This document shows positions 2,672-29,679 of a stretch of DNA of 41,344 nucleotides, one piece after another (position 1 is the first letter of the stretch; every line of letters starts with the position of its first letter). The notes under the pieces were generated by a model that was given only the letters and a program-made list of their open reading frames with translations, was not told the origin of the DNA and did no database searches. The DNA comes from Anaerolineales bacterium (lineage in GTDB: Bacteria; Chloroflexota; Anaerolineae; Anaerolineales; UBA11858), in NCBI GenBank assembly GCA_021108255.1, contig JAIORG010000265.1:1-41344 (forward strand), read 5' to 3'. A program made the position numbers and the translations under genes.

Positions 2672-2735
2672 TAGCTGCTTATAGATGCAGGATGTCATAG
2701 TTTGTCATGAGTACTACTGCTAAGGAGGAAACGTA

Positions 2736-3548: not shown

Positions 3549-3569
3549 GTATGATCACAAGAAGAAAAA

Positions 3570-5354: not shown

Positions 5355-5370
5355 TTATTGGAGGCTTTAC

Positions 5371-7986: not shown

Positions 7987-8007
7987 CTTACGAAAGGGAG
8001 ACTTATT

Positions 8008-10754: not shown

Positions 10755-11776
10755 AAGGCTTAGCAGCAGGTAAACCTGGAGAAGCTCTGTTATTTGATTT
10801 TCCACAGCCGGAATTTAACGATGGCGATTTGATGGTAAAGCCATTGGCGTGTGGGATTTGTTCGACAGATGTAAAGATGGTAAACCGTGGGTCAGGCGGC
10901 AATATCGAGTATGCGCTTGGTCATGAAGTAGCCGCGGAAATCGTTGAGGTTTCAGAGACCGAAAAACGATGGGAAGTGGGGCAAAAAGTAGTTGCTGTGC
11001 CTTATTTACCTTGCGGTGTGTGTTACTACTGCCAGCATTCTCAACCAACCCTGTGCAAAAATCTTTTCAGTGTATTTCTTGAACCAGGCGGACTGGCTGA
11101 ATTAGTGAAAATTCCACGTGAGATTGCCAGCCGGGGTACTTTTATCATTCCGGATGATATGCCTGTTGACATAGCCGCTCTTGCAGAGCCATTTGGATGT
11201 GTGATCAAAGGCATCGAGGACGTGGGGTTAAAAACAGGAGATTCGGTTTTGATTGTCGGTGATGGCCCGATGGGTGCGATCGCCGCGGCTGTAAGCAGTT
11301 ATTATGGAGCCAATATGGTTATGGTTGCCGGACTGACTCCTCATCGATTGGCAGTGGTAGACCAGTATTTCGCTGATGTCGTTATCGATGTCACTAAAAG
11401 CGACCTTCAAGCCGAGGTTAATGAATATACCCATGGTCGCGGAGCGGATATAGTCCTATCTGCCGTTTCCAGCGCAGAAGCTTTGACCAGCGCAATCGAA
11501 TGTGTGCGCCCAGGTGGACGGGTTAACGCCTTCGCCGGGGTGGAGGATGGCACAATAATCTCTCTTGATCTAAAAAAATTGCATTACCAGCAGTACCATA
11601 TGACTGGGTCATTTGGGGTTGGCCCCGAGCACTTGTTTAAGGCGTTAGATATGTTTGCCTCCGGGAAGGTTGATGTAGCTCCTGTCATCTCAGCTCATTT
11701 TCCTTTTGCTCAAGCCGTTGATGCAATTGCGTATGCCAGAGACAGAGTAGGCCTTAAAGCAATGGTCAATTTTTAG
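10751..11776 (+). CDS. Zinc-dependent alcohol/polyol dehydrogenase (GroES-like/MDR)
   Basis: CGICSTD, GHEVAAEI, structural-zinc Cys set CGVCYYCQHSQPTLC, VLIVGDGPMGAIAAA nucleotide-binding region; ATGA overlap with the PfkB gene. Confidence 0.92.
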   Translation: MKGLAAGKPGEALLFDFPQPEFNDGDLMVKPLACGICSTDVKMVNRGSGGNIEYALGHEVAAEIVEVSETEKRWEVGQKVVAVPYLPCGVCYYCQHSQPTLCKNLFSVFLEPGGLAELVKIPREIASRGTFIIPDDMPVDIAALAEPFGCVIKGIEDVGLKTGDSVLIVGDGPMGAIAAAVSSYYGANMVMVAGLTPHRLAVVDQYFADVVIDVTKSDLQAEVNEYTHGRGADIVLSAVSSAEALTSAIECVRPGGRVNAFAGVEDGTIISLDLKKLHYQQYHMTGSFGVGPEHLFKALDMFASGKVDVAPVISAHFPFAQAVDAIAYARDRVGLKAMVNF

Positions 11777-11907
11777 CAGGGTAATATTTTGAGGAGGACT
11801 CTCGTTACAGGGTAGTAAACCTCAAAGTTTGGGAGTCGTTTTGACGATATAAAGCCCAGCACTGGTGGGCATCAAATATATGTAGATGAACTTTAACGAG
11901 GTATATA

Positions 11908-12690
11908 ATGAAAGAACACCGCATACGACGCTTGTTTGCTGAAGATAAACGAATTGTGATTGTTGCTTTTGATCATGCAGCCTTCATGGGGCCAATTAGA
12001 GGATTAGAAAACCCGGGACAACTCATCGATGATATTGTCGACACCGGAATAGATTCGGTATTGACCACAATGGGAATTGCCCGTATGTTTTGTGAAAAAT
12101 TTGGACATCTAGGTTTGATTCTCCGTGTAGATGGTGGAGCAACCATGCGCAGTCCAATTATGGGGGACATCGAGTTGAGTTTCTCTGTTGAGGATGCCCT
12201 CCGCCTGGGAGCTGATGCCGTTGCCTGTATGGGAATGATCGGCTTTGATGAAGAGCCATCCTCGCTGCGCAATCTGGCCGCGCTTTCCTCGCAATCAGCT
12301 GAATGGAATATGCCTCTGTTGGCAGAAATGCTTGTCAAGGGCACAAACGATGGAAAGGTGACCGTCGAAGATGTCGAATTTGCAATGAGGATTGGTGTCG
12401 AGCTGGGAGCTGATCTTATCAAGGCTCCTTATGCTGGTCCGGCTTCTGATTTTGCGACAGCCATCCAGAGCTGCTATCGCCCAGTTGTCGTGCTGGGTGG
12501 GGCAAAAATGGATGAACCAGCTGCGTTGTTGGAGAATATCGCAGAAGCAATAGAAGCCGGCGCCAACGGGGTGGCGATAGGAAGAAATGTTTGGCAGCAC
12601 CCCAATCCTGCCAGTGTGTGCAGGGCTTTAGTCGCTTTAGTTCACGGCGGCGCCAATGTTTCCCAGGCTTTAAAGGAGATAACGGATTGA
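11908..12690 (+). CDS. DhnA/LsrF-type class I aldolase
   Basis: IVAFDHAAFMGPIRGLENP, RVDGGATM, DLIKAPYAG (Schiff-base Lys context), VVLGGAKMDEPAALLENIAEAIEAGANGVAIGRNVWQHPNP. Confidence 0.88.
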   Translation: MKEHRIRRLFAEDKRIVIVAFDHAAFMGPIRGLENPGQLIDDIVDTGIDSVLTTMGIARMFCEKFGHLGLILRVDGGATMRSPIMGDIELSFSVEDALRLGADAVACMGMIGFDEEPSSLRNLAALSSQSAEWNMPLLAEMLVKGTNDGKVTVEDVEFAMRIGVELGADLIKAPYAGPASDFATAIQSCYRPVVVLGGAKMDEPAALLENIAEAIEAGANGVAIGRNVWQHPNPASVCRALVALVHGGANVSQALKEITD

Positions 12691-14189
12691 GTAAGTTGAT
12701 TGTCGGGTTAGATATTGGCACTTCGTCTGTAAAAGCTGGACTGTTCGATCTGAAAGGTCGAGAAGTTGCAATATCACGCGCCAATTACGGAATTTATTCT
12801 CCTCATCCTGAATGGACGGAACAGGACCCGAATGAATGGTGGGAGGGAGCCAAAAAAGTTCTCACCGAAATTATGGAAGGAATCGACCCCGCCAGTGTCG
12901 CAGGAGTGGGATTGAGCGGTCAATGCCCCGGTCATGTGTTGGTAGACGAATCAGACAATGCTATCGGCAAAGCTATCATTTGGAGAGACAGGCGCGCTAA
13001 AAAAGAAGCTAAATGGCTGGCAGAGAATATATCTGGAGCGCAGGCAGTCGAATGGATCGGCACTTCAATAGGGGAAGACCCAGCCATGCCACCCGCCAGG
13101 TTGCTCTGGATCCGTGACAATTTACCAGTCGATTGGGATAAAGCACGGGTTATTCTTCAGCCGAAAGATTATATCGGTTTGAAATTGACTGGTGAAGCGA
13201 AGACAGATATTCACAGTGCGTATAGTCTTGTAAATCCGGATACAGGGAAATACGAAGAAGATTATTTTGTTCTGCTGGGCCTGTCCACGAATCAGATGCC
13301 GGATGCTCTCTCGCTAACTGAACCATTAGGGGTTGTTTCAAAGAGCGCGGGAGAAAAAACAGGGTTGCCATTTGGGATACCTGTTATTGTAGGAACAATA
13401 GATGCCTGGTGCGAAAACCTGGCAGGTGGAGTTACCCAGGCGGGAGGCGCTGTAGATGTTTCCGGAACATCTGAAATGATCTCGATGTACTCGGAAGCAG
13501 AATACCCGGGAGGTCCAGTATTTTTGGCAAGGCTTGGAGATGACCTGCGGTTTCTTTGCGGTCCCACTCAGGCTGGTGGCGATACCCTGAGGTGGCTTTC
13601 GGATGGTTTTCTTCAGCAGAGCAGTACGCACAGCCGGTTCAACCAGCTGCAGTCGCTGGCAGAGGAAGTTTCAGCTGGAAGTGATGGGGTAATTTTCCTT
13701 CCCTATTTGTATGGCGAAAGAGCACCCATCTGGGACCCAAACGCCAGGGCAGGATTCCTCGGTCTCGCAGGGGCGCACGACTTGCGGCATTGTGTCCGGG
13801 CAGTATACGAAGGGGTGGGCTATGCAATCAGAAACGTTCTGGAAATATGCGAGCGGATTAACGCGAAAGAAGCAGAGTATCTAACAATCTGCGGCGGTGG
13901 TTCGCAGAGCAGGTTCTGGAACCAAATTAAAGCAGATATTATCCAGCGGCCTGTAAAACCTGTTGAAATCAAAGAATCGGCATGTTTAGGAGCAGCGATT
14001 TTAGCCAGTGTGGGAGTCGGGATATTCCCGAAAATACAGGAAGCCTGCTCCCATATGCTGCGTTTCAAAGAGACGATCGAGCCAAATATTTTGAATGCGG
14101 CTGTGTATGAAGATTTGTTCCAAAAATACTTGGATATTTACCCGGGTTTGAAGCCAGTGTTTTCCACTAAAGAAGTGAGGGATCAATAA
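12687..14189 (+). CDS. FGGY-family carbohydrate kinase (xylulokinase/LsrK-like)
   Basis: LIVGLDIGTSSVKAGLFD, GVGLSGQCPGHVLVD, AIIWRDRRA, GGGSQSRFWNQIKADI; TTG start overlapping the aldolase TGA, with AAAGGAGAT upstream. Confidence 0.9.
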   Translation: MSKLIVGLDIGTSSVKAGLFDLKGREVAISRANYGIYSPHPEWTEQDPNEWWEGAKKVLTEIMEGIDPASVAGVGLSGQCPGHVLVDESDNAIGKAIIWRDRRAKKEAKWLAENISGAQAVEWIGTSIGEDPAMPPARLLWIRDNLPVDWDKARVILQPKDYIGLKLTGEAKTDIHSAYSLVNPDTGKYEEDYFVLLGLSTNQMPDALSLTEPLGVVSKSAGEKTGLPFGIPVIVGTIDAWCENLAGGVTQAGGAVDVSGTSEMISMYSEAEYPGGPVFLARLGDDLRFLCGPTQAGGDTLRWLSDGFLQQSSTHSRFNQLQSLAEEVSAGSDGVIFLPYLYGERAPIWDPNARAGFLGLAGAHDLRHCVRAVYEGVGYAIRNVLEICERINAKEAEYLTICGGGSQSRFWNQIKADIIQRPVKPVEIKESACLGAAILASVGVGIFPKIQEACSHMLRFKETIEPNILNAAVYEDLFQKYLDIYPGLKPVFSTKEVRDQ

Positions 14190-14203
14190 ATAGTCAACTA
14201 ATT

Positions 14204-15139
14204 GTGCAAGTCGCTCGCTTATATTACGAACATAACCTAACCCAGCAGCAAATTGCGGGAAGGTTAAACATAACCCGGCAGAAAGTATCGCGATTACTTA
14301 TCCAGGGGAGAGATGATGGGATCGTTAATATAGTCATCAATGACCCGACACCTTCAGAGCCAGACCTTGAGGCGGAATTGGTAGAAACCTTTCATCTAAA
14401 CAAAGTTGTCTTGACTGAAGGTGTTGGTTTAGACCAGGAAGGTTTAAGACATAGCGTTGGAGTAGCGGCTTCTGTTTATCTACAGCAAATAGTGAAAGAC
14501 GATGATTGTGTTGGAGTTGGATGGGGAAGAACCCTGTTTTCAGTAGTGAGCAATCTTCAAAATAGCAAAGATATGCGGATTAATGTGGTCCCAATGATTG
14601 GGGGGGCGGGCGATATGGCTCCATCTTTCCAGGTAAATGAGTTGGTTCGACTTCTGGCAGAAGCATTTGGAGGGACTTATCGTCCGATTTATGCCCCAGC
14701 TTTCACTCAAGATATTAATGAATGGAAAGCAATCATGGATACACACGAGGTAAGACAAATTGCCAAGCTCTGGCCGAAGTTGGATATAGCTGTTGTGGGA
14801 ATTGGACATGTAGAGTTCCAGAAAAAGTCATCTATGTTTTTTACCGATCATATGACAGCTGCTTCACTGGCCAAGTTGAAATCGGAAGGTGGAGTTGGTG
14901 ATATATGCGGCAACTTTTTCGATATCCAGGGAAAACCCGTAATGGATGATCCCGGTATAGTGGGGGTAAACCTGGAGCAGCTTCGGAAAATACCGGAGGT
15001 TATTGTTCCTGCTGGCGGAATAGAAAAAACTCAGGCGTTGGTAGGTGCATTACGGGGAGGTTATATCAAAACCTTAGTCACTGATGTAGTCACTGCTAGA
15101 GAGGTGCTAGCAATGCAATGCAAGGAGGTGATACTATGA
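14204..15139 (+). CDS. SorC/DeoR-LsrR family transcriptional regulator (sugar-binding)
   Basis: VARLYYEHNLTQQQIAGRLNITRQKVSRLL helix-turn-helix; GVGWGRTLFSVVSNL and PAGGIEKTQALVGALRGGYIKTLVTD sugar-binding domain motifs. Confidence 0.9.
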   Translation: MQVARLYYEHNLTQQQIAGRLNITRQKVSRLLIQGRDDGIVNIVINDPTPSEPDLEAELVETFHLNKVVLTEGVGLDQEGLRHSVGVAASVYLQQIVKDDDCVGVGWGRTLFSVVSNLQNSKDMRINVVPMIGGAGDMAPSFQVNELVRLLAEAFGGTYRPIYAPAFTQDINEWKAIMDTHEVRQIAKLWPKLDIAVVGIGHVEFQKKSSMFFTDHMTAASLAKLKSEGGVGDICGNFFDIQGKPVMDDPGIVGVNLEQLRKIPEVIVPAGGIEKTQALVGALRGGYIKTLVTDVVTAREVLAMQCKEVIL

Positions 15140-15249
15140 GAAATTCTCGGGTTGGAGCTTGAGTAGTTCTTTCCCGAATAGAAAGCATTCGATACTACAA
15201 TAAACACTGTATCGGAAGATTAATTATCTTATTTAAGAGGAGCACAACA

Positions 15250-15741
15250 ATGAGAAAGAGTATTTTTGTATTAATTATCGTGTTATTGACAGCTGGAATG
15301 CTGGCTGGCTGCGCACAAGAAGGCGAAGTCGGCGATGCGATCTTGACAATCACCGGTGATATCAAAACCACCAATTCTGGCGACAATTATGTCTTTGACG
15401 AAGCCAGATTTGAAGAACATAAAGTGGAATTGGTTATTGATGATGTCTGGATGGGTGAAGGCCAGGAATATGCTGGTATTTTACTCTCTGAAATAATTGA
15501 CATTGTCAAACCCGGATCAGATGCAACCATAATCAGCGTTATCGCGGTTGACGGAAAATCTGCAGAGGTTGCCATCGAAGATGCCAAGAATATGGATATC
15601 TTGATGGTTCACTATCTGAGCGGCGCTCTCCTTGGTGATGACCTTGGCGGCCCGGTGAAGATTGCTTTTGGTGCCGACGCACAAGAAGTATATCCCGACG
15701 ACAGCTGGATGTGGTGGGTAGCCGAACTTAAGTTCAAATAG
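15250..15741 (+). CDS. Lipoprotein with oxidoreductase molybdopterin-binding (sulfite-oxidase) fold, apparently non-catalytic
   Basis: Lipobox LAGC; YAGILLSEIIDIVKPGSDATIISVIAVDGKSAEVAIEDAKNMDILMVHYLSGALLGDDLGGPVKIAFG resembles a SuOx-fold domain. Confidence 0.6.
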   Translation: MRKSIFVLIIVLLTAGMLAGCAQEGEVGDAILTITGDIKTTNSGDNYVFDEARFEEHKVELVIDDVWMGEGQEYAGILLSEIIDIVKPGSDATIISVIAVDGKSAEVAIEDAKNMDILMVHYLSGALLGDDLGGPVKIAFGADAQEVYPDDSWMWWVAELKFK

Positions 15742-15758
15742 GGTAAATCCTATCATTG

Positions 15759-15794
15759 ACATGAGGGGCGTGAATCAATTTGCGCCCCTCATGT
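15759..15794. terminator. 12-bp perfect inverted repeat (hairpin) downstream of the lipoprotein gene
   Basis: ACATGAGGGGCG ... CGCCCCTCATGT with a 12-nt loop, 18 nt after the stop codon; no clear U-tract on the + strand. Confidence 0.6.
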
Positions 15795-15804
15795 AAAAAA
15801 ACTA

Positions 15805-16806
15805 ATGGAAATATTTGAAAAAGCCTTCGCGTGTCTGGCTGGCCTGGCAATTGGGGATGCCATGGGGATGCCAACGGAATTTATGACCCCGGAATTGATC
15901 TCAGAAAATTATGGCTGGGTTCAAGATTTTGTTAAACCTCTGGAGTGGCACCCTCATTCACGAATGGAGCTTGGTTCGATAACTGACGATACTGGACAGG
16001 CCCTGGCAATTATTCATGCCTATACTGGTAAGGGCACATTATCTCCCGAGGATGTTGCCCGGGAGCTTATCGCCTGGGCAGATGGAATCCCCGAAGATGA
16101 GTTAGCAACTTTCATTGGACCGAGCACAAGTAAGGCCCTGAGTTCTATCAAAGATGGCTGCAGTCCAAAGGAAAGTGGTTCTTCAGGTAAAACCAATGGT
16201 GGGTCAATGCGGGTTGCTCCAGTGGGAATCGTAAGATATGGAGACCAGCGCAACGCTGTGGCGGATGCATACACCTCATGTGTTCCCACACACAACACAA
16301 CTGTTGCCGCTGCTGGAGCGGGGGCTGTGGCCGCCGCTATTGCCGTCGCAATGACAACAGACTCGTCAATCGACTCGATAATTGAAGCAGGAAAGTTTGG
16401 CGCCAGGGAAGGAAGCAAGAATGGCAATTGGGCCTGGGGCACCAGACTTGACAAACGCATCGAGCTGGCAGACCGTTTAGTGCAAGATGCTGATGATGAG
16501 AAAATTGCCCTGGAATTACTCTACAATTACGTTGGAGTGGATATGCTGGTAGCTGAGTCGGTAGCCACGGCTTTTGGAATTGTCCGCCTGGCAGGCGGGG
16601 ATCCGATGAAAGCCTGCGCTCTGGGAGCAAATATTGGCGGAGATTCTGACACCATTGCCGCTATTGCTGGCGCTATTTGTGGAGCCTGGAAAGGGATAAG
16701 TCACATCGACAAACAGTTACTGGACGTGGTTTTGGAAGTCAACAAAATGGACCTGGAACTTGAAGCACAGCACCTTGTAGAAATTGCTCGAAATACAAAA
16801 AAATAA
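15805..16806 (+). CDS. ADP-ribosylglycohydrolase (DraG/ARH-like) family protein
   Basis: GLAIGDAMGMPTEF, SITDDTGQALAI, GANIGGDSDTIAAIAGAICGAW metal-binding motifs. Confidence 0.9.
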   Translation: MEIFEKAFACLAGLAIGDAMGMPTEFMTPELISENYGWVQDFVKPLEWHPHSRMELGSITDDTGQALAIIHAYTGKGTLSPEDVARELIAWADGIPEDELATFIGPSTSKALSSIKDGCSPKESGSSGKTNGGSMRVAPVGIVRYGDQRNAVADAYTSCVPTHNTTVAAAGAGAVAAAIAVAMTTDSSIDSIIEAGKFGAREGSKNGNWAWGTRLDKRIELADRLVQDADDEKIALELLYNYVGVDMLVAESVATAFGIVRLAGGDPMKACALGANIGGDSDTIAAIAGAICGAWKGISHIDKQLLDVVLEVNKMDLELEAQHLVEIARNTKK

Positions 16807-16990
16807 ACCTGGTAATCTAAATTTCAAATAACCGGCGGCGACATGTTACGCAAAGTTAAAAAGTTGTGGAGAGATAAAAGCAATCAATACACCTGCCATT
16901 TTTTTGAAAGATTGAAAAACTCTTATCTATCTTTGCAGTTTGGTGATCTTGAGCTAAACCATTCGCTATGCAGCTATAACAAGAATCATA

Positions 16991-17893
16991 ATGAATAACT
17001 TGAAAAAAAATGTACTGATTGGTTTTAACATACACCCACTCTGGTTGTCTGGCACAGACTTGGAATCATTCCTCAGCCCTCTGCGGGATAACGGCTTGAG
17101 ATCCCTGGAATTTGAGGTCGACTCAAATTTACCCGGGTGGGAGCAATTTGAACCCTTGATGGAATCCTGCTCTGACATCGGTATGGAAATTTGCTTCCAT
17201 GCTCCTTACCGGCCCCATTATTCGCTGTACGATTTTTGCGGTATAAGGCGTGACGAAATTTGCAATATCAACAAACCTTTGTGGTCTCTGGCAGATTCCT
17301 GGGGGGTGAGGAATAATTTTCGCACAGAAATCGTCGTTCACGGCGCTACTTTGCATCAATCTCACCCAGATTCCAGTACTTTTAGGAGCCAGGAAGAATC
17401 TCAGGGGAAGGTAACCAAAGAAAAACTGCGTGAAGATACAAAGGGTTTTATTACCTGGGCTCTGGAGACTTTTCCAAATCTTACCATTGCCCTTGAAAAT
17501 CTCGATGTTACCAAGCCAGGAGTTATAAAGTTTGGGCAAAGAAGAGAGGATGTCCTCTCACTCGTGACTGAAATAGATCATCCCCGGCTTGGAATTTGTT
17601 GGGATATGGGTCACGATATTCGTCACGGGGTTACTGAAGACCCTTCCAAGGAATGGTTGGAACATGTAGTTCATGTCCACGTTCATGATATTGATAATAA
17701 CGGCGAGGACCATTTTCCTCTGGTATTTAATAAAGTTCCCAACGAGCATTGGATCCAGCTCCTTATGGATGCTGGAATGGAAGGGACGATTACGCTCGAA
17801 CTCAAAGGCGGCAATCTGATTAATTGGGAGTTGGAAAGAATAAATTATGCTCTTGCACAGAGCATAAAGACAATCAACGAGGTGATCACATGA
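16991..17893 (+). CDS. Sugar phosphate isomerase/epimerase (AP endonuclease 2/xylose isomerase-like TIM barrel)
   Basis: IALENLDV, GICWDMGHDIRHG, HVHVHDID, TITLELKGG metal-ligand motifs. Confidence 0.85.
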   Translation: MNNLKKNVLIGFNIHPLWLSGTDLESFLSPLRDNGLRSLEFEVDSNLPGWEQFEPLMESCSDIGMEICFHAPYRPHYSLYDFCGIRRDEICNINKPLWSLADSWGVRNNFRTEIVVHGATLHQSHPDSSTFRSQEESQGKVTKEKLREDTKGFITWALETFPNLTIALENLDVTKPGVIKFGQRREDVLSLVTEIDHPRLGICWDMGHDIRHGVTEDPSKEWLEHVVHVHVHDIDNNGEDHFPLVFNKVPNEHWIQLLMDAGMEGTITLELKGGNLINWELERINYALAQSIKTINEVIT

Positions 17894-18831
17894 GCAAGAC
17901 TGAATCACTTGCAAAAAATACATTAAGTCCTAGTTTGCAAAGGAAACAACGCCAGAGAAAGGAATCCCTGGCAGCTTACGCGTTTCTGGCTCCAAGTATA
18001 TTGATTTTTGCCGTGTTTACCTTTTTCCCGGCAATATTCTCTATGGTAGCCGGTTTCTTTCGCTGGAATCTGCCTTACGACCCTGTATTCACGGGGCTGA
18101 GTAACTTTGAATTTCTATTTGTAGATGATATTGGAGCGGCTGAATTTGGGAAGTCCGTGTTGAATACGCTCTATTTTATGCTGGGCATTCCAATCAATAT
18201 CTGCGTTTCGCTTTGGATTGCAGTGATGCTGAATCGCAGGTTGCCTGGTGTGGGAATTTTCAGAACAGCTTTCTTCCTGCCCACGTTGACATCAATGGCC
18301 GCTATTTCGGTCGTGTGGATGTGGTTGTACCACCCGGCAGATTACGGTTTGTTTAACACTCTATTGATAAGATTCGGGCTGCCGATTCAGTCCTGGTTGC
18401 GCGACCCGGTGTTAGCTATGCCTTGCCTGATTGTATTGGGTGTATGGCGCGGGATGGGATATAACATCGTAATATTTTTGGCAGGACTTCAATCGATCCC
18501 TCATGATTTATACGAAGCCTCTGAAATTGATGGAGCAAATTGGTGGGGTCAATTCCGACTGATTACGTTACCTTTACTAAGCCCAACTACTTTTTATATC
18601 TTGATTATCGGAGTGATCAACTCACTTAAAGCCTTCGCCGAAATCGACATAATGACTCAGGGTGGTCCTTTAGGAGCCACTACAACCCTGGCGTATTACC
18701 TGTATCAATACGCATTTCAATATTTCCAGATTGGTTTAGCTTCGGCAGTGGCGATCGTATTATTCGTATTTATATTAGTATTGACCCTTATCCAGTTTAA
18801 AGTTGTAGAAAAGAGGGTGCATTATGGATAA
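17890..18831 (+). CDS. Sugar ABC transporter permease (CUT1, MalF/UgpA-like)
   Basis: EAA loop YEASEIDGANWWGQFRLITLPLLSP; ATG at 17890 overlapping the upstream TGA (the tracked start at 17824 lies inside the previous gene). Confidence 0.92.
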   Translation: MSKTESLAKNTLSPSLQRKQRQRKESLAAYAFLAPSILIFAVFTFFPAIFSMVAGFFRWNLPYDPVFTGLSNFEFLFVDDIGAAEFGKSVLNTLYFMLGIPINICVSLWIAVMLNRRLPGVGIFRTAFFLPTLTSMAAISVVWMWLYHPADYGLFNTLLIRFGLPIQSWLRDPVLAMPCLIVLGVWRGMGYNIVIFLAGLQSIPHDLYEASEIDGANWWGQFRLITLPLLSPTTFYILIIGVINSLKAFAEIDIMTQGGPLGATTTLAYYLYQYAFQYFQIGLASAVAIVLFVFILVLTLIQFKVVEKRVHYG

Positions 18832-19705
18832 TATATCTGTCACCAAGGTTAAACCGCATAGTTTTTTCAAATCGAAAAAATTCAAATCGGCAGTGGGGAA
18901 AGGGTCATGGTATCTAGTATTGACCATTAGTGCCATTGTTGTTGTTCTGCCGTTTATTTGGATGGCCTCAACTTCATTAAAAGGCCCCGGGGAAGTCTTT
19001 GCATATCCGCCGAAGTGGTTGCCTCAAGAGTGGCGTTTTCAAAACTACGTGGATGCATTCCAGGCTGCTCCATTTGCTCGCTATTTCTATAACAGCACGA
19101 TAGTTGCACTTTGTGTAACAGTTGGACAACTGGTCTCTTGTTCATTGGCTGCCTTTGCGTTTGCGAGAATGGAATTCAAAGGGAAAGGATTTTTGTTCAG
19201 TCTTTTCCTGAGCACTACAATGATCTCAACCCAGGTAACTCTGGTGCCGTCATACCTGATCATCCAAAAATTACACTGGATCGATACTTATCAGGGATTG
19301 ATTGTGCCATTTATTGCCAACGCTTTTGGCATTTTTATGCTCAGGCAAGCATTTATGACAATCCCTCTTGAATTAGAAGAGGCTTCTAAATTGGACGGCT
19401 GCTCCAGGCTTAGATTCTTATGGCAGATTTGCATTCCTCTGATCAAACCTACTCTGGCGGCCCAGGCTTTGTTTGCCTTTATGGGCAACTGGAATGCCTA
19501 TTTGTGGCCGCTAATCATAACCAACCGAGAGGAGATGAGAACTCTCCAGATTGGTCTGCGTTATTTTGTCAGCCAGGAAGGAGGCACTCAATGGGGTGTC
19601 TATATGGCGGCAGCTATGATAGTGATACTCCCCGTAGTCGCGATTTACTTCACTGTCCAGAAATCATTTGTCGAAGGCATCGCTACCACTGGTTTAAAGG
19701 GATGA
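18824..19705 (+). CDS. Sugar ABC transporter permease (CUT1, MalG/UgpE-like)
   Basis: EEASKLDGCSRLRFLWQICIPLIKP EAA loop; WMASTSLKGPGEVFAYPPKWLP N-terminal motif. Confidence 0.92.
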   Translation: MDNISVTKVKPHSFFKSKKFKSAVGKGSWYLVLTISAIVVVLPFIWMASTSLKGPGEVFAYPPKWLPQEWRFQNYVDAFQAAPFARYFYNSTIVALCVTVGQLVSCSLAAFAFARMEFKGKGFLFSLFLSTTMISTQVTLVPSYLIIQKLHWIDTYQGLIVPFIANAFGIFMLRQAFMTIPLELEEASKLDGCSRLRFLWQICIPLIKPTLAAQALFAFMGNWNAYLWPLIITNREEMRTLQIGLRYFVSQEGGTQWGVYMAAAMIVILPVVAIYFTVQKSFVEGIATTGLKG

Positions 19706-19741
19706 TCGAAAAGAAGTGCAGTAGCTAAAAGGAGCAAGAAA

Positions 19742-21058
19742 ATGACTAAAATATTAAAGGCAATAGTGTTGATCGCAGCTTTATCATCTGTGATGTTGGT
19801 TGGTTGTGGAGGAGATGCTAATAGCAATTCAGCCGGGACTATTGATAAAGATGGTCATATCACGATCGAGTTTTGGTATGCTTTGGGGGGAAATAGCGGG
19901 GAGGTTGTTGAGGAGCTTGTCAACCAGTTCAATCAATCACAAACTGAAATAACGGTTATTGGCACATATCAGGGCGGTTACGCATCGAGCATGGCAAAAT
20001 TATGGAATGCGCTATCTGCTAAAACCCCGCCTGCTGTTGCTCAAATTGGCGGTGCGCCTCTGGTAGGTAATACAGGGGCCATAATCCCCATCACCGATTT
20101 TTTAAATCAATCGGGCGACTTCGACCGCGATGATATCTGGGAAGTATTTTGGGATTATAACTCTGCTGGCGGGCAGATTTGGAGCATGCCGTTCAATCAT
20201 TCTGTGCCGATGCTTTTCTATAACCGCGATCTTTTTATCAGCGCAGGACTTGACCCCGATCAACCACCTGAAACATGGGATGAGGTCATTCAATATGGCC
20301 AGCTTTTAACTACCGATACAGATGATAATGGCGAGATTGATCAATGGGGATTCAATACCAAGGACGATACTCATTGGTATTTGAGCACCATGTTTATGGA
20401 AAATGGAGTGGAGATAGTAAATTCCGATGAAACCGAGGTTTTGTATACCAGTCCTGAAGCTGTAGAGATGTTAACTTTGTGGGGAGATTTTGTACACAAG
20501 CACAAAATTATGCCGCCCAATCAGCACGATGAATCAAAGGGAGACTTCCTGGCAGGTAAGGTTGGTATGTTATTGATGTCCAGTTCTAATGTCCCTGGCA
20601 CCATTCAAGATGCGCCATTTGACGTTGGAGTGGCCATGTTCCCCACTATTGCAGGGAAAGAACGAGTTGTTCCAGTTGGAGGCGCCAGCTTGATCATACT
20701 GGACCATGACAATGAATTAATCAAACAGGCAGCGTGGACCTTTATTAAATATATGGCCAATCAGGAAAGCTCTCTATACCTTTCAACACATACTGGCTAT
20801 TTGCCAATTTATAAAGCAGCTTTGGAGTGGCCTGAAATGCAAAGCTACCTTGAAGATAATCATCGCTCTGAAGAGGCAATATTACAGCTGGAATATGCAG
20901 AATCTATACCATTGTTCTCGGCCCTGGGATCAAGCGACGCGCAATTAAGAGTGGCTATAGAAGCTATCGAGCTTGGAACATCCAGCCCTCAAGAAGTTTT
21001 GGATCACGCCAAGGAAGTTGTCGATGGTGTCCTTTTAGATAACCTGCAAGATCAGTAA
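19742..21058 (+). CDS. Sugar ABC transporter extracellular solute-binding lipoprotein
   Basis: Lipobox MLVGC; ITIEFWYALGGNSGEVVEELVNQFNQSQ, PETWDEVIQYG, AWTFIKYMANQESSLYLSTHTGYLPI. Confidence 0.93.
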   Translation: MTKILKAIVLIAALSSVMLVGCGGDANSNSAGTIDKDGHITIEFWYALGGNSGEVVEELVNQFNQSQTEITVIGTYQGGYASSMAKLWNALSAKTPPAVAQIGGAPLVGNTGAIIPITDFLNQSGDFDRDDIWEVFWDYNSAGGQIWSMPFNHSVPMLFYNRDLFISAGLDPDQPPETWDEVIQYGQLLTTDTDDNGEIDQWGFNTKDDTHWYLSTMFMENGVEIVNSDETEVLYTSPEAVEMLTLWGDFVHKHKIMPPNQHDESKGDFLAGKVGMLLMSSSNVPGTIQDAPFDVGVAMFPTIAGKERVVPVGGASLIILDHDNELIKQAAWTFIKYMANQESSLYLSTHTGYLPIYKAALEWPEMQSYLEDNHRSEEAILQLEYAESIPLFSALGSSDAQLRVAIEAIELGTSSPQEVLDHAKEVVDGVLLDNLQDQ

Positions 21059-21179: not shown

Positions 21180-23072
21180 ATGCCGTACACTGCATTAATT
21201 GACTTGACTTCATCGAAAATAAAAATCCGGGAAACTGAGGACGCTAAACTTGAAAAGTGGTTAGGCGGACGCGGATTAGGGGCATCGATTCTATTTGACA
21301 GCGTGGATATCTCGATCAACCCCTTTGATCCGGAGAATTATTTAATCTTCACCACTGGGCCGTTGAACGGATCTCCCTGGCCGACCTCCTCACGCTATCA
21401 TGTGACTTTCAAATCCCCAGCTACTGGTGCTTACGGCTATGCCAACGCAGGTGGTCATTTTGGGCCTGAACTGCGTTATGCAGGATATGACGCAGTTGTT
21501 ATCACCGGTAAGGCTCCTGAGCCTGTGATAATCCAACTAATCGACCAGGAGATATCCTTACTTCCTGCTAAGGAATATTGGGGACAAAGCACCTCGTTCG
21601 TAGAAAGGTCGCTGCGGGAGAAATATGGCGGACGCGTGGCTTCAATTGGTCAAGCTGGAGAGAACCTGGTTCCTATGGCCGCTATCATTAATGATGGCGG
21701 CAGGGCTGCTGCGCGCAGCGGCCCGGGGGCGGTGATGGGCAGCAAAAATCTCAAAGCGCTGCACGTACGCTCAGATCAAAAGAAAAAATCCTCTCCATCT
21801 GAGTTCTCAAAATTGGTAAAGGACTACTCGAAATCTTTGATCAACGATGATAACTCTCAGCTACTGAGGGAACAGTCCACCCTGTTCCTCATGTCAATCA
21901 AAAATATCATTGGCGATCTCCCAGCCAAGAATCATCAAACCGCTCAAGTTCCTTTTATCCGTGATATTGACGCTGAATCATTTAGCCGCTACTGGACGAA
22001 AAGACTGGGCTGTGCCATGTGCCCGATGCGCTGCTCGAGGCAATCTACTTTAAAAACTAATGGCAAAGATATCCAAATTGAAGGTCCGGAATACGAAACC
22101 GCGAACGCTTTTGGCCCTATGTGCTGGAACGCGAACCCAGAAGTGGTCATCGAAGCCAACTACCTGTGCAATGAATATGGACTGGACACCATCTCTATTG
22201 GTGTGACAATTGCCTTTGCGCTAGAGTGTCACGAAAAAGGCTTGTTAGATCACCCTGATCATTCTCTGGAATGGGGAGATTCTGAAACCATCCTGGGGCT
22301 TATAAAGGATATTGCCTTTAGAAATGGATTAGGCGAGATGCTCTCAAAAGGAGTGAAGCAAGCTGCGCGTGAGATAGGTAAAGGCGCCGAAAAATATGCC
22401 ATGCATGTTAAAGGGCTTGAGCTTCCCAGGCAGGAGCCGCGGATAGCAAAATCCTTCGGCTTAGGGCATGCTACAAGCAATAGAGGCGCGGACCATCTTT
22501 ATGGAATGCCAGCCCTCGATTTGGCTGGCAACTGGAAAGTGGCCAGGAAACTTTACCCGGAGGAGATTCTCGAAGAACTGATGGAACTATCTAATGAAAA
22601 ATATAAAGCGGATATTGTGTTCTATGGGGAACACTTTTGCGCTGTAGTAGATTCTCTCGGTGTCTGCAAATTCAGTACCTCAGAAACTTACACAGTAATG
22701 CCTGCAGACCTCGCGAAGGGATTGCAAGCGCTTGGATATGATTTTACAGAAGAATCCCTTCTTGAAATTGGTGAAAGAATAGTAAATCTGGAAAGGTTGT
22801 TTAATCAATTGCATGGCTTGAAAAGGGAAGATGACATGCTGCCCCTGAGATTTACCGAGGAACCATTAGATGTGTACGATTTCGAAACTGATTCGGATTC
22901 AGATGAAGTCCACAGGTCTGCATCTCCCATCGCAACTGGCAAAATCCACGATTGGAATGCCATGCTTGATCGTTATTACAAATTGCGCGGCTGGGACGAA
23001 CAGGGACATCCTTCATCTGAAACACTTGTAAGATTGGGTCTGCAAGATATTTCTCTCGGGCAAGGTGACTGA
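21180..23072 (+). CDS. Aldehyde ferredoxin oxidoreductase family (tungsto-bispyranopterin) protein
   Basis: WLGGRGLGASILFD, GPLNGSPWPTSSRYHVTFKSPATGAYGYANAGGHFGPELRYAGYDAVVI, GPGAVMGSKNLKAL, cluster Cys CAMCPMRC plus distal Cys in DSLGVCKF. Confidence 0.95.
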   Translation: MPYTALIDLTSSKIKIRETEDAKLEKWLGGRGLGASILFDSVDISINPFDPENYLIFTTGPLNGSPWPTSSRYHVTFKSPATGAYGYANAGGHFGPELRYAGYDAVVITGKAPEPVIIQLIDQEISLLPAKEYWGQSTSFVERSLREKYGGRVASIGQAGENLVPMAAIINDGGRAAARSGPGAVMGSKNLKALHVRSDQKKKSSPSEFSKLVKDYSKSLINDDNSQLLREQSTLFLMSIKNIIGDLPAKNHQTAQVPFIRDIDAESFSRYWTKRLGCAMCPMRCSRQSTLKTNGKDIQIEGPEYETANAFGPMCWNANPEVVIEANYLCNEYGLDTISIGVTIAFALECHEKGLLDHPDHSLEWGDSETILGLIKDIAFRNGLGEMLSKGVKQAAREIGKGAEKYAMHVKGLELPRQEPRIAKSFGLGHATSNRGADHLYGMPALDLAGNWKVARKLYPEEILEELMELSNEKYKADIVFYGEHFCAVVDSLGVCKFSTSETYTVMPADLAKGLQALGYDFTEESLLEIGERIVNLERLFNQLHGLKREDDMLPLRFTEEPLDVYDFETDSDSDEVHRSASPIATGKIHDWNAMLDRYYKLRGWDEQGHPSSETLVRLGLQDISLGQGD

Positions 23073-25587
23073 TATGCGCCTTGAAATTTCACCAGAAAAA
23101 TGTACAGGATGCCAGGCTTGTGTTGTTTTTTGTTCTTTGAAACAAGAAGGAGAAGTAAATCCCGAACTGGCTCGTATACATGTCTGGGAAGATCATTCCG
23201 AAATCAGCTTTCTGCCAATTACTTGCGCTATCTGCGACGACAAGCCCTGTGTAGAAGTCTGTCCGGAACAAGGTGCAATCAGTGTGAATAACCTGGGAGC
23301 TGTGGTTATAGACGAAAGCTTGTGCACGGGATGCAGCAAATGTGTGGACGCCTGTCAAATTGGAGCAATTCAACTTCATCTCCTGCCTGGCAGAGGCAAA
23401 TTGGGTAAAGCAGTGGTGTTGAAATGCGATCTGTGCGATGGCGATCCCTGGTGTGTGAAAGTATGCCAGCCAGGAGTGATCACGATTAGCGATGACGACG
23501 GCGGGCAGGTGACGCATGACAAGTTATTGACGAAACTCGGAAAAATTCCCGAAAGACAGATCCGCTCTCCTAAAATTAAAACAGCAGAAAGCACTAAAGA
23601 AGATTTTCCCTACCAGGGCTATGCCGGAAAATACTTGCGTGTAGATTTATCCTCTGGCGAAATTAAAACGTTGCCTTTGCCAGTTGAGTGGGTCGAAAAT
23701 TACCTGGGTGGTAATGGAATTGGTGTAAAAATTCTCTGGGATGAGGTTCCGGCAGCTGTTGATCCTCTCGAAAGTGATAATAAGCTGATAGTCTCTGCTG
23801 GTCCGCTGTGTGGTTCTCCGGTTCCAAATTCAGGCCGGGTTGAGTTCATTGCCAAGTCCCCGCTGACAAATATATACGGAGACTCTAATGCTGGCGGGCA
23901 TTTTGGACCTGAATTGAAACACGCAGGGTATGATCTGATAATATTCGAAGGACGGTCACCAAAACCCGTTTACCTTTATCTAATAGATGAGAAAATCGAA
24001 ATACGTTCAGCAGAACATATTTGGGGGCTTGGAACTTTCGAAACGGAAAATCAATTGCGTGATGAAACCAACCAGCCTGATCTAAAAACGGCCATAATCG
24101 GCCCTGCTGGAGAAAACCTGGTCCGTTATGCGGGGATCCAGGTGACATCCCGGAGAAGTGCGGCTCGTTCTGGACTGGGTGCCGTGATGGGATCAAAGAA
24201 CCTGAAAGCCATTGCAATCCGCGGCACGAAGAGCCTCCAGGTTGCAGATCCTGAACGTACTCTAGAAGTTACTTTAAAGCACCATTTGGCAATAAGAGAG
24301 AATGAATTCTTCCCGGGTGCAAGTAAATTTGGCACACCAGGTATTGTTGCTTTAATGGACTATATGGGACGGTTCCCAACACAAAATCACCGTTACGGCA
24401 GTTTTGAGAATTTTGATGAGATTTCAGCAGATACACTTCATGAACAACATTTCATCCGGGATATCTCATGCTACAGCTGTCCTGTTGGATGCGATAAGGT
24501 ATACGCGGTGAAAGAAGGCGAATTCGCCGGCAGTTTGTCTACGAGCGTAGAATATGAAACCTTGAATTCCCTGGGAGCAAGAGTCTGCAACGCTAATCTT
24601 CCGTCGATAATCAAGGCCAATGAGATTTGTGACGACTTAGGAATTGATACAATATCGGTTGGGAGTGCTATTGCGTTTGCGATGGAACTTGCCGAGAAAA
24701 AAATTCTATCAACTGAAGATTGTGATGGGCTAGAACTTGTTTGGGGAAACTATCACACAATGCTTCAATTGCTGGAACGGATTGCATATCGAAAGGGTTA
24801 CCTGGGTGATCTCCTTGCAGAAGGTGCTGCCAGGGCCGCGAAACGGTTGGGCAAGGGCGCTGAGCGATATGCCATGCATGTCAAAGGGCAAGATATTCCT
24901 TCACAAGATGGTAGGGCTCAACAATCTATGGGGCTTGCCCATGCCACATCATCTAGAGGCGCAGATCATCTCAAAGCTTTTCCTGTAGCTGATGAAACTG
25001 GATACCCCGGCGGGGCTGGGGCAAGATATGGAGAGGATAAGCTTCCCGAATTGGTTGACCCGCTGGAAACAAAATATAAAGCCTTCCTGGTAAAGGATGG
25101 TGAAGATTACGGGGCTATAGTAGATTCTAGCGGTAATTGCAAATCTGGTGGCACTTTTGTCATGTTAGAAATTTATTGGCAGGAACAATGCGATGCCCTA
25201 AACGCGATTACAGGTTTGTCTCTCAGCGTGGAAGAGTTGAAACGGATTGGCGAGCGAATCTATAATTTACAACGCTGCTACAATGCCCTTCACGGTATTG
25301 ATAAATCTGATGATGTTCTTCCCTGGCGTATGACCAAAGTGCCTTCGCCATCAGGTAATGCAAAAGGAAGTGTCTGCCATCTATCTGAGATGCTGGAAGA
25401 ATATTACACCTTGAGAGATTGGAATACCGAAACCGGATTGCCCAATGAGAGAAAGCTGCAATATCTGGGTATTGACGAGGTATTTAATCAACTCAAAGAT
25501 GCAATCGAGACAGGAGAACCCCAGGAACTTCGTTCTCGCCTGGGATGGGCCAGGCCATACGATGGTGAGGTGGTGGATCCACTATGA
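23065..25587 (+). CDS. Fusion: N-terminal four-cluster ferredoxin (HycB/DmsB/AorA-like) + aldehyde ferredoxin oxidoreductase
   Basis: Four Cys tetrads (CTGCQACVVFC, CAICDDKPCVEVC, CTGCSKCVDAC, CDLCDGDPWCVKVC) followed by an AOR domain (YLGGNGIGVKILWDE, GDSNAGGHFGPELKHAGYDLII, CYSCPVGC, SSGNCKSGG). Start GTG 23065 or ATG 23074. Confidence 0.95.
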   Translation: MTDMRLEISPEKCTGCQACVVFCSLKQEGEVNPELARIHVWEDHSEISFLPITCAICDDKPCVEVCPEQGAISVNNLGAVVIDESLCTGCSKCVDACQIGAIQLHLLPGRGKLGKAVVLKCDLCDGDPWCVKVCQPGVITISDDDGGQVTHDKLLTKLGKIPERQIRSPKIKTAESTKEDFPYQGYAGKYLRVDLSSGEIKTLPLPVEWVENYLGGNGIGVKILWDEVPAAVDPLESDNKLIVSAGPLCGSPVPNSGRVEFIAKSPLTNIYGDSNAGGHFGPELKHAGYDLIIFEGRSPKPVYLYLIDEKIEIRSAEHIWGLGTFETENQLRDETNQPDLKTAIIGPAGENLVRYAGIQVTSRRSAARSGLGAVMGSKNLKAIAIRGTKSLQVADPERTLEVTLKHHLAIRENEFFPGASKFGTPGIVALMDYMGRFPTQNHRYGSFENFDEISADTLHEQHFIRDISCYSCPVGCDKVYAVKEGEFAGSLSTSVEYETLNSLGARVCNANLPSIIKANEICDDLGIDTISVGSAIAFAMELAEKKILSTEDCDGLELVWGNYHTMLQLLERIAYRKGYLGDLLAEGAARAAKRLGKGAERYAMHVKGQDIPSQDGRAQQSMGLAHATSSRGADHLKAFPVADETGYPGGAGARYGEDKLPELVDPLETKYKAFLVKDGEDYGAIVDSSGNCKSGGTFVMLEIYWQEQCDALNAITGLSLSVEELKRIGERIYNLQRCYNALHGIDKSDDVLPWRMTKVPSPSGNAKGSVCHLSEMLEEYYTLRDWNTETGLPNERKLQYLGIDEVFNQLKDAIETGEPQELRSRLGWARPYDGEVVDPL

Positions 25588-26729
25588 ATGAAGAGTTTGC
25601 TTTTGCCAAGTTGCGCGCTAAATTGTTTGATTGCGAATTGCCAAGTCCACTAGTATTGGCTTCGGGCCCACGATCGTTTAACGCCGCAAGCCTATTAGAA
25701 GCATACAAGGCAGGCGCTGGTGCTGTTGTTACCAAGACTATTCGGTCAACGCTGCCTGATAATCCCACACCGCATCTTATAAAGCCTTCATCGAAAGGCT
25801 CACAAAACACACTTTTTAATGCGGAAGAATGGTCAGATATTTCCTGGGAGCAATGGGTTTACCAGGAAATTCCTCTGCTTGAAGACCATCCTGGTGCTTT
25901 GATTGTCAGTGTTGGACACACTGCTCAGGATATTGAAAAGTTTGTCGAGCCTCTGGTAGCATGCAAAACCGTAGATATGATTGAATGCGTCTCCTATTCA
26001 GGGGATTCAATAATTCCGCTGATCACTGCTATCAGGTCAAAGACTGACCTGCCAATTCTGGCCAAGTTGAGTTTCAACTGGGGAAGTGAATTATTTTCCA
26101 TTGCCGGAGAAGCCTTGAATGCTGGGTGCGACGGGTTCACTGCTATTGATTCTATTGGCCCTGCTCTTTATATCGATATTGAAACTGGCAGCCCAATGTT
26201 GGCAAGTGAAGGCGGCAAGGGATGGATTTCAGGAGCAGCAATCAAACCATTGGCGCTTTCTGTCGTCGCGGAGCTTAAGAAACGTTTTAACAAGCCAGTC
26301 GTTGGTACTGGTGGAGTCTTCTCCGCTGAAGACATTATCGAAATGACCATGGCAGGGGCCGATGCTGTAGGCGTGTGTTCAGCCCCAATACTTTACGGAA
26401 ATGAATGGTTTTCGAAGACTCTGCATAAATTAGATCGATGGCTTGTGGAATTTGAGTACACCAGCCTGGAAGAGATCATTGGATATGCTTTACCCAAGCT
26501 ATACACCAATCAAATCTCAAATGGATTAGAATTTAATTTTGATCCTCTTCTCTGTACTCTTTGCCGCAGATGCGTGGAAGTATGTCCCTATAATGCCCGG
26601 GAAATTTCCGGGATTATGCCGCGCGAGAGGAATATTCAGATGTCACTCATAGAAGAAATTTGCAGGTCCTGCGGGTTGTGTTCATCTGTCTGCAAACCAA
26701 AGTCACTGACGAGTAAAATAATACAGTAG
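25584..26729 (+). CDS. Dihydroorotate dehydrogenase/PreA-like flavoprotein with C-terminal 2x[4Fe-4S] domain
   Basis: FMN TIM-barrel motifs (PLVLASGP, AGAGAVVTKTI, VVGTGGVFSAEDIIEMTMAGADAVGVCSAPILYG) and CTLCRRCVEVCP ... CRSCGLCSSVCKP. Confidence 0.88.
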   Translation: MNEEFAFAKLRAKLFDCELPSPLVLASGPRSFNAASLLEAYKAGAGAVVTKTIRSTLPDNPTPHLIKPSSKGSQNTLFNAEEWSDISWEQWVYQEIPLLEDHPGALIVSVGHTAQDIEKFVEPLVACKTVDMIECVSYSGDSIIPLITAIRSKTDLPILAKLSFNWGSELFSIAGEALNAGCDGFTAIDSIGPALYIDIETGSPMLASEGGKGWISGAAIKPLALSVVAELKKRFNKPVVGTGGVFSAEDIIEMTMAGADAVGVCSAPILYGNEWFSKTLHKLDRWLVEFEYTSLEEIIGYALPKLYTNQISNGLEFNFDPLLCTLCRRCVEVCPYNAREISGIMPRERNIQMSLIEEICRSCGLCSSVCKPKSLTSKIIQ

Positions 26730-26816: not shown

Positions 26817-26872
26817 CAGGAGATGCAACCTGCCGTCTTTTGATCGAAAACGAATTATTCCATGGAGCCCCG

Positions 26873-28267
26873 ATGTCCTTTGACCTGGTAATCCACGATG
26901 GTCTATTAGTAACCTCATCAGATACATTCAAGGCTGATTTGGGGATTAATGCGGGAAAGATTGCTGCCATTGGTCATAAATTATCTGGAAAGAAAACGAT
27001 CGATGCCAGTGGATTGTATGTTCTTCCCGGTGCAGTTGACCCCCACGTTCACCTCGAAATGCCTGTTGGCAAAACAAGGTCAAGTGATGACTGGTTCACT
27101 GGAACACTGGCAGCCGCTTATGGCGGCACTACGACAGTCATTGATTTTGTTGAAGCTTTGCCTCAGCAATCATTGGTTGAGGCATTAATTGACAGAAAAT
27201 CACTGGCAGAAAACCGAGCAGTCATTGATTATGCTTTTCACATGACTTTGGCGGATGCCAAAGAATATACACTGGAAGAGATTCCTGCAGTGATAAATGC
27301 CGGAGTGACCTCATTTAAAACCTACACAACCTATGAAGGCTTTCGTTTATCAGATAGTGAATTCCTGAGGATATTGAAAGCAGTTTCTACTTACAATGGC
27401 CTCGTTATAGTCCACGCCGAAAACGACTCAATAATCAAACATTTTACGCAAGAACTGATCGATAGCGGAAATATGGCTCCACGTTTTCACCCGCTCAGCC
27501 GCCCAGCAATAGCTGAAGGAGAAGCGATAGGGCGAATACTTTCCCTGGCAGAGGCTGTAGACGCGCCAATTTACATTGTTCACATTTCATCAGCTATTGG
27601 AGCCAAGGAGCTGGCAAATGCACAGATCCAGAGGAAGAATGTACTTGGTGAGACTTGTGTCCAATATTTGCTGCTGACGGAAGCCGAATACCAGCAACCT
27701 GGGTTCGAAGCCGCCAAATATGTATGCCAACCTCCTTTGCGAAAAAGCGGAGACTGCGCGGCGTTGTGGAAAGCCCTGGGCGACGGAAGCATTCTAACAA
27801 TTGGCACAGATCACTGTCCATTCAACTTTGTAGGGCAGAAGGATTTAGGGAGCGAACGTTTTACAGATATCCCTGGAGGCCTTCCCGGAATAGAATCCAG
27901 ATTATCCCTTGTTTATTCCTCTGGAGTGGCCAAAGGTTTAATCAGCCTGAATCAATGGGTGTCCCTGTGCTGCACCAATCCTGCTGTCATATTTGGGCTT
28001 CATCCTCAAAAAGGGTCACTCCTCCCGGGAGCTGACGCAGATATCGTTATCTTCGATCCAACGCTGAAAAAGACAATTTCTCATAACATGCTTCACGAGA
28101 ATGTTGACTACACCCCCTATGAAGGTTATGAACTTCAGGGATATCCTGTAAAAACACTGCTGCGCGGCGAAGTTATCATAAATAATGGGAAAGCAATCGA
28201 TATCAAAGGGAAGGGAAAGTATCTGAAATGCGGACCACCCCAGGTAAATTTGCAGCCGCTCCCGTAA
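26873..28267 (+). CDS. hydA: Dihydropyrimidinase/hydantoinase (D-hydantoinase family)
   Basis: PGAVDPHVHLEMP, GVTSFKTYTTYEGF (carbamylated-Lys position), VIVHAENDS, IYIVHISS, TIGTDHCPFN; GGAG before the ATG at 26873. Confidence 0.93.
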   Translation: MSFDLVIHDGLLVTSSDTFKADLGINAGKIAAIGHKLSGKKTIDASGLYVLPGAVDPHVHLEMPVGKTRSSDDWFTGTLAAAYGGTTTVIDFVEALPQQSLVEALIDRKSLAENRAVIDYAFHMTLADAKEYTLEEIPAVINAGVTSFKTYTTYEGFRLSDSEFLRILKAVSTYNGLVIVHAENDSIIKHFTQELIDSGNMAPRFHPLSRPAIAEGEAIGRILSLAEAVDAPIYIVHISSAIGAKELANAQIQRKNVLGETCVQYLLLTEAEYQQPGFEAAKYVCQPPLRKSGDCAALWKALGDGSILTIGTDHCPFNFVGQKDLGSERFTDIPGGLPGIESRLSLVYSSGVAKGLISLNQWVSLCCTNPAVIFGLHPQKGSLLPGADADIVIFDPTLKKTISHNMLHENVDYTPYEGYELQGYPVKTLLRGEVIINNGKAIDIKGKGKYLKCGPPQVNLQPLP

Positions 28268-28353: not shown

Positions 28354-29679
28354 ATGAACGGAATGTTAATTCTCCCAGATTGGTTGATCATTGATGCTCT
28401 TCAGAAGCCAAAGAAAAAATGGGGCATCCGTATCTCCGGGAACATGATTACTGATGTAGACAGCAATGACCAATTGCGAGAAAAATTCAAGGATGACGAA
28501 GTGCTGGAAGCACCCGGTAAAGTGCTGTCGCCAGGTTTCGTAAATGCACACACTCATATTTATGGGGTTTTGGCACACGGCATCCCGCTGGATAAAGCTC
28601 CCTCTGGTTTTTGGCCCTTTCTCGAAGATTTTTGGTGGCCGCTGGTTGAAAACCAGTTGGATCAAGAAATGATTTGCGTTGCGACCGATTTGAGATGTGC
28701 AGATATGCTCAAAAGCGGTGTCACCTCATTTTTTGATTGTACTGAAGCGCCATTTGCTTTACCTGGCTGTTTAGCCGCTCAAAGGGAACGTGTTCTAGGA
28801 AGCGGTATGAGGGGTATATTATCATTTGAAGCGACAGAACGTATAAGCACAAAAAATGGAGAGCTGGGACTGAAAGAAAACGCTGATTTCATTGATACCT
28901 GTAATCAGGAAGGGGGATTGGTATCCGGGTTGATGTGCATTCATACGACCTTCACCTGTTCGCCTGATTTTATTCGCACAGCATTCGGTATGGCAAGTGA
29001 TAGAAACGTGCTTCTTCAAGCCCATGTCTCGGAGGGAACTTACGAACCTGAATACACATCGAGCAAATATGGATTGAAGCCCATACAATTTTATGATTCG
29101 CTTGGCGTAGCAGGCCCGGGTCTGCTGGCTTCGCAATGCGTTCATCTGGATGAAGCCGAGATTCAAATTATTTCCGAAAAAGGGATCAGGGTAAGCCACC
29201 AGCCGTTGTCGAATTGTGAAGTGGGAGGCGGCATCGCTCCAATTCCTCAACTTTCCGCATTAGATATTACGATGGGGTTAGGCAGCGACGGATACATTGA
29301 TGATTTCTTTGAGGTAATGAGAGGAGCTTTCCTGATTCATAAAGCTTACCATCAGGATCCTGGCGTGATGCCGGCTCATGTGGTCTGGCACCTGGCAACT
29401 GAGGGAGGAGCGCGCGCTCTTGACCTGGAAAAAGTTGGAAGACTTGAGCCTGGTTGGAAAGCAGACCTCCAACTGATAGACGGAAATCTTCCCACTTTAT
29501 TGAGCGAGCATAACCTTTTTGAGCAAATGCTCCTATACCGTAATGCAAACGATGTCAGCATGGTGATGGTTGACGGGGTGATAAGAGTCCGGGATTATGA
29601 GGTTTTAGATGTTGATCGGGCATTCCTGCTATCGAGAACAAGATCTGCGGCTGAAAGATTATGGTCGGCAAAAAAATAG
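28354..29679 (+). CDS. Metal-dependent amidohydrolase, SsnA/TrzA-like
   Basis: SPGFVNAHTHIYGVLAHGIPLDKAPSGFWPFLEDFWWPLVE, LLQAHVSEG, QCVHLDEAEI, MGLGSDGYIDDFFEVMRGAFLIHK. Confidence 0.88.
   Translation: MNGMLILPDWLIIDALQKPKKKWGIRISGNMITDVDSNDQLREKFKDDEVLEAPGKVLSPGFVNAHTHIYGVLAHGIPLDKAPSGFWPFLEDFWWPLVENQLDQEMICVATDLRCADMLKSGVTSFFDCTEAPFALPGCLAAQRERVLGSGMRGILSFEATERISTKNGELGLKENADFIDTCNQEGGLVSGLMCIHTTFTCSPDFIRTAFGMASDRNVLLQAHVSEGTYEPEYTSSKYGLKPIQFYDSLGVAGPGLLASQCVHLDEAEIQIISEKGIRVSHQPLSNCEVGGGIAPIPQLSALDITMGLGSDGYIDDFFEVMRGAFLIHKAYHQDPGVMPAHVVWHLATEGGARALDLEKVGRLEPGWKADLQLIDGNLPTLLSEHNLFEQMLLYRNANDVSMVMVDGVIRVRDYEVLDVDRAFLLSRTRSAAERLWSAKK

Follow-up and report, generated by a model that had tools for sequence, protein, structure and literature searches.

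A natural single-chain WorS-WorL protein in a conserved two-AOR locus of Chloroflexota, with a possible link to N-heterocycle breakdown

The 41,344-nucleotide contig from an Anaerolineales bacterium that was analysed here (the window) encodes a fused variant of Class II WOR, in which a four-[4Fe-4S] domain and an AOR catalytic domain form one polypeptide. The gene adjoins a second AOR gene, and the conserved neighbourhood of the two, read by analogy with known pathways, suggests that the enzyme pair would act in the breakdown of a nucleobase-like ring compound.

The open reading frame spans 23065..25587 (+), begins with GTG, contains no internal stop and encodes 840 residues. The likely start is ATG 23074 rather than GTG 23065, since the homologous gene of L041, another Anaerolineaceae MAG, begins at the homologous ATG, and since the GTG sits within a Shine-Dalgarno-like AAGGTGA just upstream of the ATG in the window. 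A true start that excluded the Fer4 part had been raised as a concern; the Fer4 part is retained from either codon. The features of the gene are as follows, with residues numbered from the GTG.

23074 to 25587, forward strand: fused WorS-WorL protein, 837 aa from ATG 23074 (840 aa if GTG 23065), with four-[4Fe-4S] domain, linker and AOR catalytic domain, from the reading frame, Pfam, and the start and fusion in L041
23101 to 23466, forward strand: sixteen-cysteine four-cluster domain, residues 13-134, from cysteine positions, a shuffle test and PDB relatives
23506 to 23616, forward strand: linker of ~37 residues, open in frame, standing where split orthologues have the S stop and L start
23617 to 25584, forward strand: AOR catalytic domain (AFOR_N and AFOR_C), from Pfam, PDB relatives and cluster ligands; the model matches 9mqx_D, 1aor_A and 8c0z_A

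Up to residue 180 the protein contains exactly 16 cysteines, arranged in four tetrads (13/16/19/23, 54/57/62/66, 87/90/93/97 and 121/124/130/134); the four tetrad motifs appeared in 0 of 20,000 shuffles of that segment, where the maximum was two. Fer4-type Pfam matches cover residues 7-141 and are followed by AFOR_N at 188-388 (E 9e-81) and AFOR_C at 405-803 (E 6e-123), both above the gathering score, as in the WorL subunit of the AOR/WOR family. The catalytic domain keeps its own ligands for the proximal cluster of that family (C469/C472/C476/C692) and aligns with the E and H positions of 1aor. The best PDB relatives of the small (S) domain are 9mqx_E, 8c0z_C (AorA) and 6x6u_B (WorS), so that its four [4Fe-4S] motifs correspond to a Class II small subunit; those of the large (L) domain among solved structures are 1aor, 9mqx_D, 9g7j and 8c0z_A. 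In an AlphaFold2 model of the fusion (pTM 0.86) the AOR domain is predicted with confidence, whereas the S domain and the linker are modelled too poorly to yield cluster distances, with pLDDT <50 at linker residues 154-176. A Foldseek search with the model is consistent with the sequence-based assignments, and on both grounds we class the S domain as WorS/AorA-like and the L domain as AOR-like. The fused protein does not reach the cut-off of NF007354 (E. coli YdhV; 259.9 vs 868 bits). The original prediction of sixteen N-terminal cysteines in four DmsB/AorA-type tetrads, covalently joined to a full AOR domain, is thus borne out by count, shuffle test, structural relatives and a single open frame. 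Its statement that the AorA-type subunit is a separate protein in characterised enzymes also agrees with the literature, which describes Fe-S and catalytic subunits as separate proteins (PMC6365974, PMC10413684, PMC13328260).

A base error that merged two truly overlapping genes could in principle produce such a frame: in split orthologues the S and L genes often overlap out of frame, as at the L039 junction, where one indel could join them. The same fused gene is, however, present in the independent MAG L041 at 81% identity; that copy differs in linker sequence and by an in-frame indel of 3 residues, and its linker is free of stops. The linker is the fastest-evolving segment, with 51% amino acid identity to L041 versus 80-82% for the domains. 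Because an independent MAG carries the same fusion with an in-frame indel, we conclude that the fusion is real, and consider an assembly or sequencing artefact extremely improbable.

The Fer4-AOR architecture, whose rarity the original prediction had left to be gauged, is uncommon in the genomes covered. The fusion is found in two of ~22 orthologues, the window and L041; in the ~20 other Chloroflexota orthologues (52-66% identity) S and L are separate, usually overlapping genes. Surveys of the class (396 genomes) and the phylum (400 genomes) returned no further fused hit, and in the plasmid collection AOR and 4Fe-4S genes are annotated separately in the six records with at least 80% query coverage. 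In a tree built by a quick method the fused pair is nested inside the split clade (SH-aLRT 100), which marks the fusion as derived; it is best read as a single event in one small Anaerolineaceae lineage, where the stop/start overlap of two adjacent genes would have been lost once. The fusion itself is a minor local event.

Nesting and split orthologues together identify the fused protein as the two-subunit WorS-WorL arrangement known from Class II, in covalently linked form. As in P. furiosus WOR5/ASOR and C. bescii GOR, an AOR-type large subunit is paired with a four-[4Fe-4S] small subunit; in those enzymes the subunits are separate, which is also how Class II is defined, whereas the window and L041 have one polypeptide, and the window also encodes a second WorL. 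AorABC of Aromatoleum aromaticum (Class III) likewise pairs an AorA-like four-cluster domain with an AorB-like catalytic domain, but its subunits are separate and it has a filament helix and an NAD-binding AorC; among the genes flanking the window's AOR pair there is no FAD/NAD-binding WorN (AorC) domain, which sets the pair apart from Class III. BamBC of class II benzoyl-CoA reductase, an AOR-family catalytic subunit with an Fe-S subunit that acts on an aromatic ring, is a further relative in that the model matches BamB, although this match is weaker than those to aldehyde-type AORs and no Bam partners were found at the window locus. By analogy with the separate subunits of solved WOR enzymes, the 4x[4Fe-4S] domain would dock on its own AOR domain and exchange electrons with the proximal cluster, so that S-to-L transfer is expected within the fused protein. 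The fusion is not conserved and is therefore not needed for function.

The genes of the surrounding locus are listed here.

1304 to 8748, forward strand: TRZ/ATZ amidohydrolase, ECF transporter (CbiQ, ATPase, S component) and FAD/CCG oxidoreductase; several orthologous loci show these genes in synteny with the AOR genes
8745 to 9809, forward strand: ornithine/acetylornithine-type carbamoyltransferase, adjoining AOR1/AOR2 in other genomes (77-80% identity)
21180 to 23072, forward strand: AOR1, a second, separate AOR catalytic subunit, from Pfam; own clade with SH-aLRT 100; adjoins S-AOR2 in 17 loci
25584 to 26729, forward strand: DHODH-like flavoprotein carrying two [4Fe-4S] motifs at its C-terminus and no PreA catalytic-loop motif; its start overlaps the stop of the fused gene (ATGA)
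26840 to 28267, forward strand: dihydropyrimidinase/D-hydantoinase, passing the TIGR02033 cut-off (537.8 vs 393.25 bits), with orthologues in other loci
28354 to 29679, forward strand: SsnA-like aminohydrolase, below the SsnA cut-off TIGR03314 (252.8 vs 455.5 bits), conserved next to AOR2

AOR1 and AOR2 (the catalytic domain of the fused protein) form distinct clades, each with SH-aLRT 100 in the quick-method tree, and at 17 loci, the window among them, AOR1 is next to S-AOR2; the two are co-inherited. Together, the fused protein and AOR1 would constitute a single enzyme system with a W- (or Mo-) pterin cofactor. The tungstate transporter WtpA was found in four of nine cluster genomes and was not found in that of the window. 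A pathway neighbour lies within ~1.5 kb of 11 of 14 AOR2 orthologues, as against 0 of 48 other AOR genes examined as a control. Counting the window, the recurring neighbours are the SsnA-like aminohydrolase (15 loci), dihydropyrimidinase (9) and carbamoyltransferase (6), numbers that depend on how far the contigs extend. What we call the reductase position holds a DHODH/Fer4 (PF01180) protein in 11 loci, window included and one of them partial, and a luciferase-like LLM (PF00296) protein in four (L039, L040, L042 and L065); the two types never occur together in the stretches read, and neither lies near the AOR genes in L037, L038, L066 and L068, four loci that were read over long distances. 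Gene order varies among orthologous loci. In the window a sugar-type block at 9828-21058 (PfkB, ADH, DeoC-like aldolase, FGGY kinase, SorC regulator, ABC transporter) separates the carbamoyltransferase and ECF genes from the AOR genes, and NCBIfam gave no match for the ECF S component. Elsewhere, uninterrupted MtmB-family (monomethylamine methyltransferase) ORFs without an amber codon lie near AOR loci of two genomes (L040:12954-14327 and L067:16299-17702), and in L065 a methenyl-tetrahydromethanopterin cyclohydrolase (MCH) gene (7206-8177) stands between AOR2 and the LLM gene.

We put at about even the chance that this two-AOR W/Mo enzyme, with its covalently joined WorS-WorL (AorA-AorB type) part, catalyses an oxidoreduction within a pathway that breaks down an N-heterocycle. 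Aldehyde oxidation is the activity of most characterised AOR members, and this counts against such a role. The pair might instead oxidise an aldehyde that is formed in the pathway substrate or imported along with it, with free ferredoxin receiving the electrons by way of the S domain; the fusion would then alter stoichiometry only. Both AOR1 and AOR2 retain every E/H and cluster-ligand position of aldehyde-type AORs, the closest solved relatives are aldehyde enzymes, and Class II WORs use ferredoxin (PMC13328260). On the other hand, the hydrolase/reductase locus has a fixed set of two AOR paralogues dedicated to it, in contrast to the 48 control AOR genes, and no obvious aldehyde-producing enzyme is conserved next to the pair, so that we regard ordinary aldehyde oxidation as possible, though the less probable reading.

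The N-heterocycle reading draws on the reductive urate clusters (XdhD, YgfK/UacX or F420-LLM, SsnA, HyuA, YgeW), where SsnA is found together with a PF01180 or PF00296 protein (PMC12507026). The AOR locus shares with them its enzyme types, the PF01180/PF00296 alternation and LLM homology, the LLM proteins of SsnA clusters being 48-49% identical to those of AOR loci. Its logic would be that of reductive purine/urate degradation, with a substrate oxidoreductase, a reductase, ring opening by an aminohydrolase and hydantoinase, and carbamoyl transfer, and the AOR pair would occupy the place of the xanthine-dehydrogenase-type enzymes. The differences are equally concrete: an AOR pair stands instead of XDH, the SsnA-like protein is below its family cut-off, and the carbamoyltransferase falls below the YgeW and acetylornithine carbamoyltransferase cut-offs. 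As the PreA loop is missing as well, the pathway analogy rests on superfamilies; the failed SsnA, YgeW and PreA family tests lower the claim of a urate pathway and leave that of a similar mode of working where it was. A true cluster of SsnA and XDH is present separately in the window's genome (L087, contig 26, 3070-16287), with XDH, its FAD subunit, LLM, CofC, CofD, F420 ligase, F420-dependent NADP oxidoreductase and an SsnA above cut-off, and hence the AOR pair is no simple XdhD replacement. Plain replacement of XdhD in Chloroflexota urate clusters was rejected more generally, since 16 of 19 AOR-locus genomes have an above-cut-off SsnA elsewhere; co-occurrence with SsnA was set aside as uninformative, 303 of the 396 class genomes having SsnA anyway. 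Given the likeness of the neighbours and the separate canonical cluster, the AOR locus resembles a second, parallel system that would handle a related ring compound. A more specific role, in which a two-headed tungsten AOR (AOR1 plus fused S-AOR2) carries out (de)hydroxylation or reduction of a nucleobase-like N-heterocycle, the job of molybdenum xanthine-dehydrogenase-type enzymes in known purine catabolism, is in our judgement unlikely.

The original prediction further envisaged a defined electron path from the fusion, potentially to a PreA-like product of the gene at 25584; such a path is not supported as an obligate feature. The protein resembles PreA and dihydropyrimidine dehydrogenase in its DHODH barrel and C-terminal ferredoxin domain, but it scores far under the PreA cut-off NF006183 (136 vs 335 bits) and its family lacks the catalytic-loop motif SCPQ seen in the true PreA of L043 and L044. 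The stretch that follows the IE(C/L/V)VSY strand is shorter in the subfamily formed by 25584-26729 and its orthologues than in PreA. Were the fused wire to pass electrons straight to this flavoprotein in one complex, AOR oxidation would drive ring reduction. The overlapping reading frames (ATGA), the two [4Fe-4S] motifs of the DHODH-like protein, the lack of an identified PreT-type gene beside it, and an operon from a distant lineage with genes for PreT, true PreA, an S subunit and two AORs, its S and L being separate (L043 and L044), all speak for such wiring. Against it, the four LLM-bearing orthologous loci have no DHODH/Fer4 gene and their F420-type LLM protein has no Fe-S domain match, gene order is variable, and the fusion is not conserved; we therefore consider a direct hand-off in one complex improbable. 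The fusion may pass electrons to the 25584 protein, though not as an obligate partner.

Taken alone, the fusion is a small step, although a natural single-chain WorS-WorL could help biochemists to fix stoichiometry. The locus matters more. The WOR classification gives a defined physiological role for 5 of 92 clades, and in a text search of it none of purine, pyrimidine, hydantoin and Chloroflexota turned up (PMC13328260); our literature search found no paper tying AOR to purine or hydantoin breakdown, so that breakdown of nucleobase-like rings would be a role not described for the AOR family in the literature searched. A conserved two-AOR system with ring-opening hydrolases and a PF01180/PF00296 reductase position offers a testable substrate class for an uncharacterised WOR group, and Longilinea arvoryzae is a cultivated organism in which the substrate class of the AOR locus would be testable.
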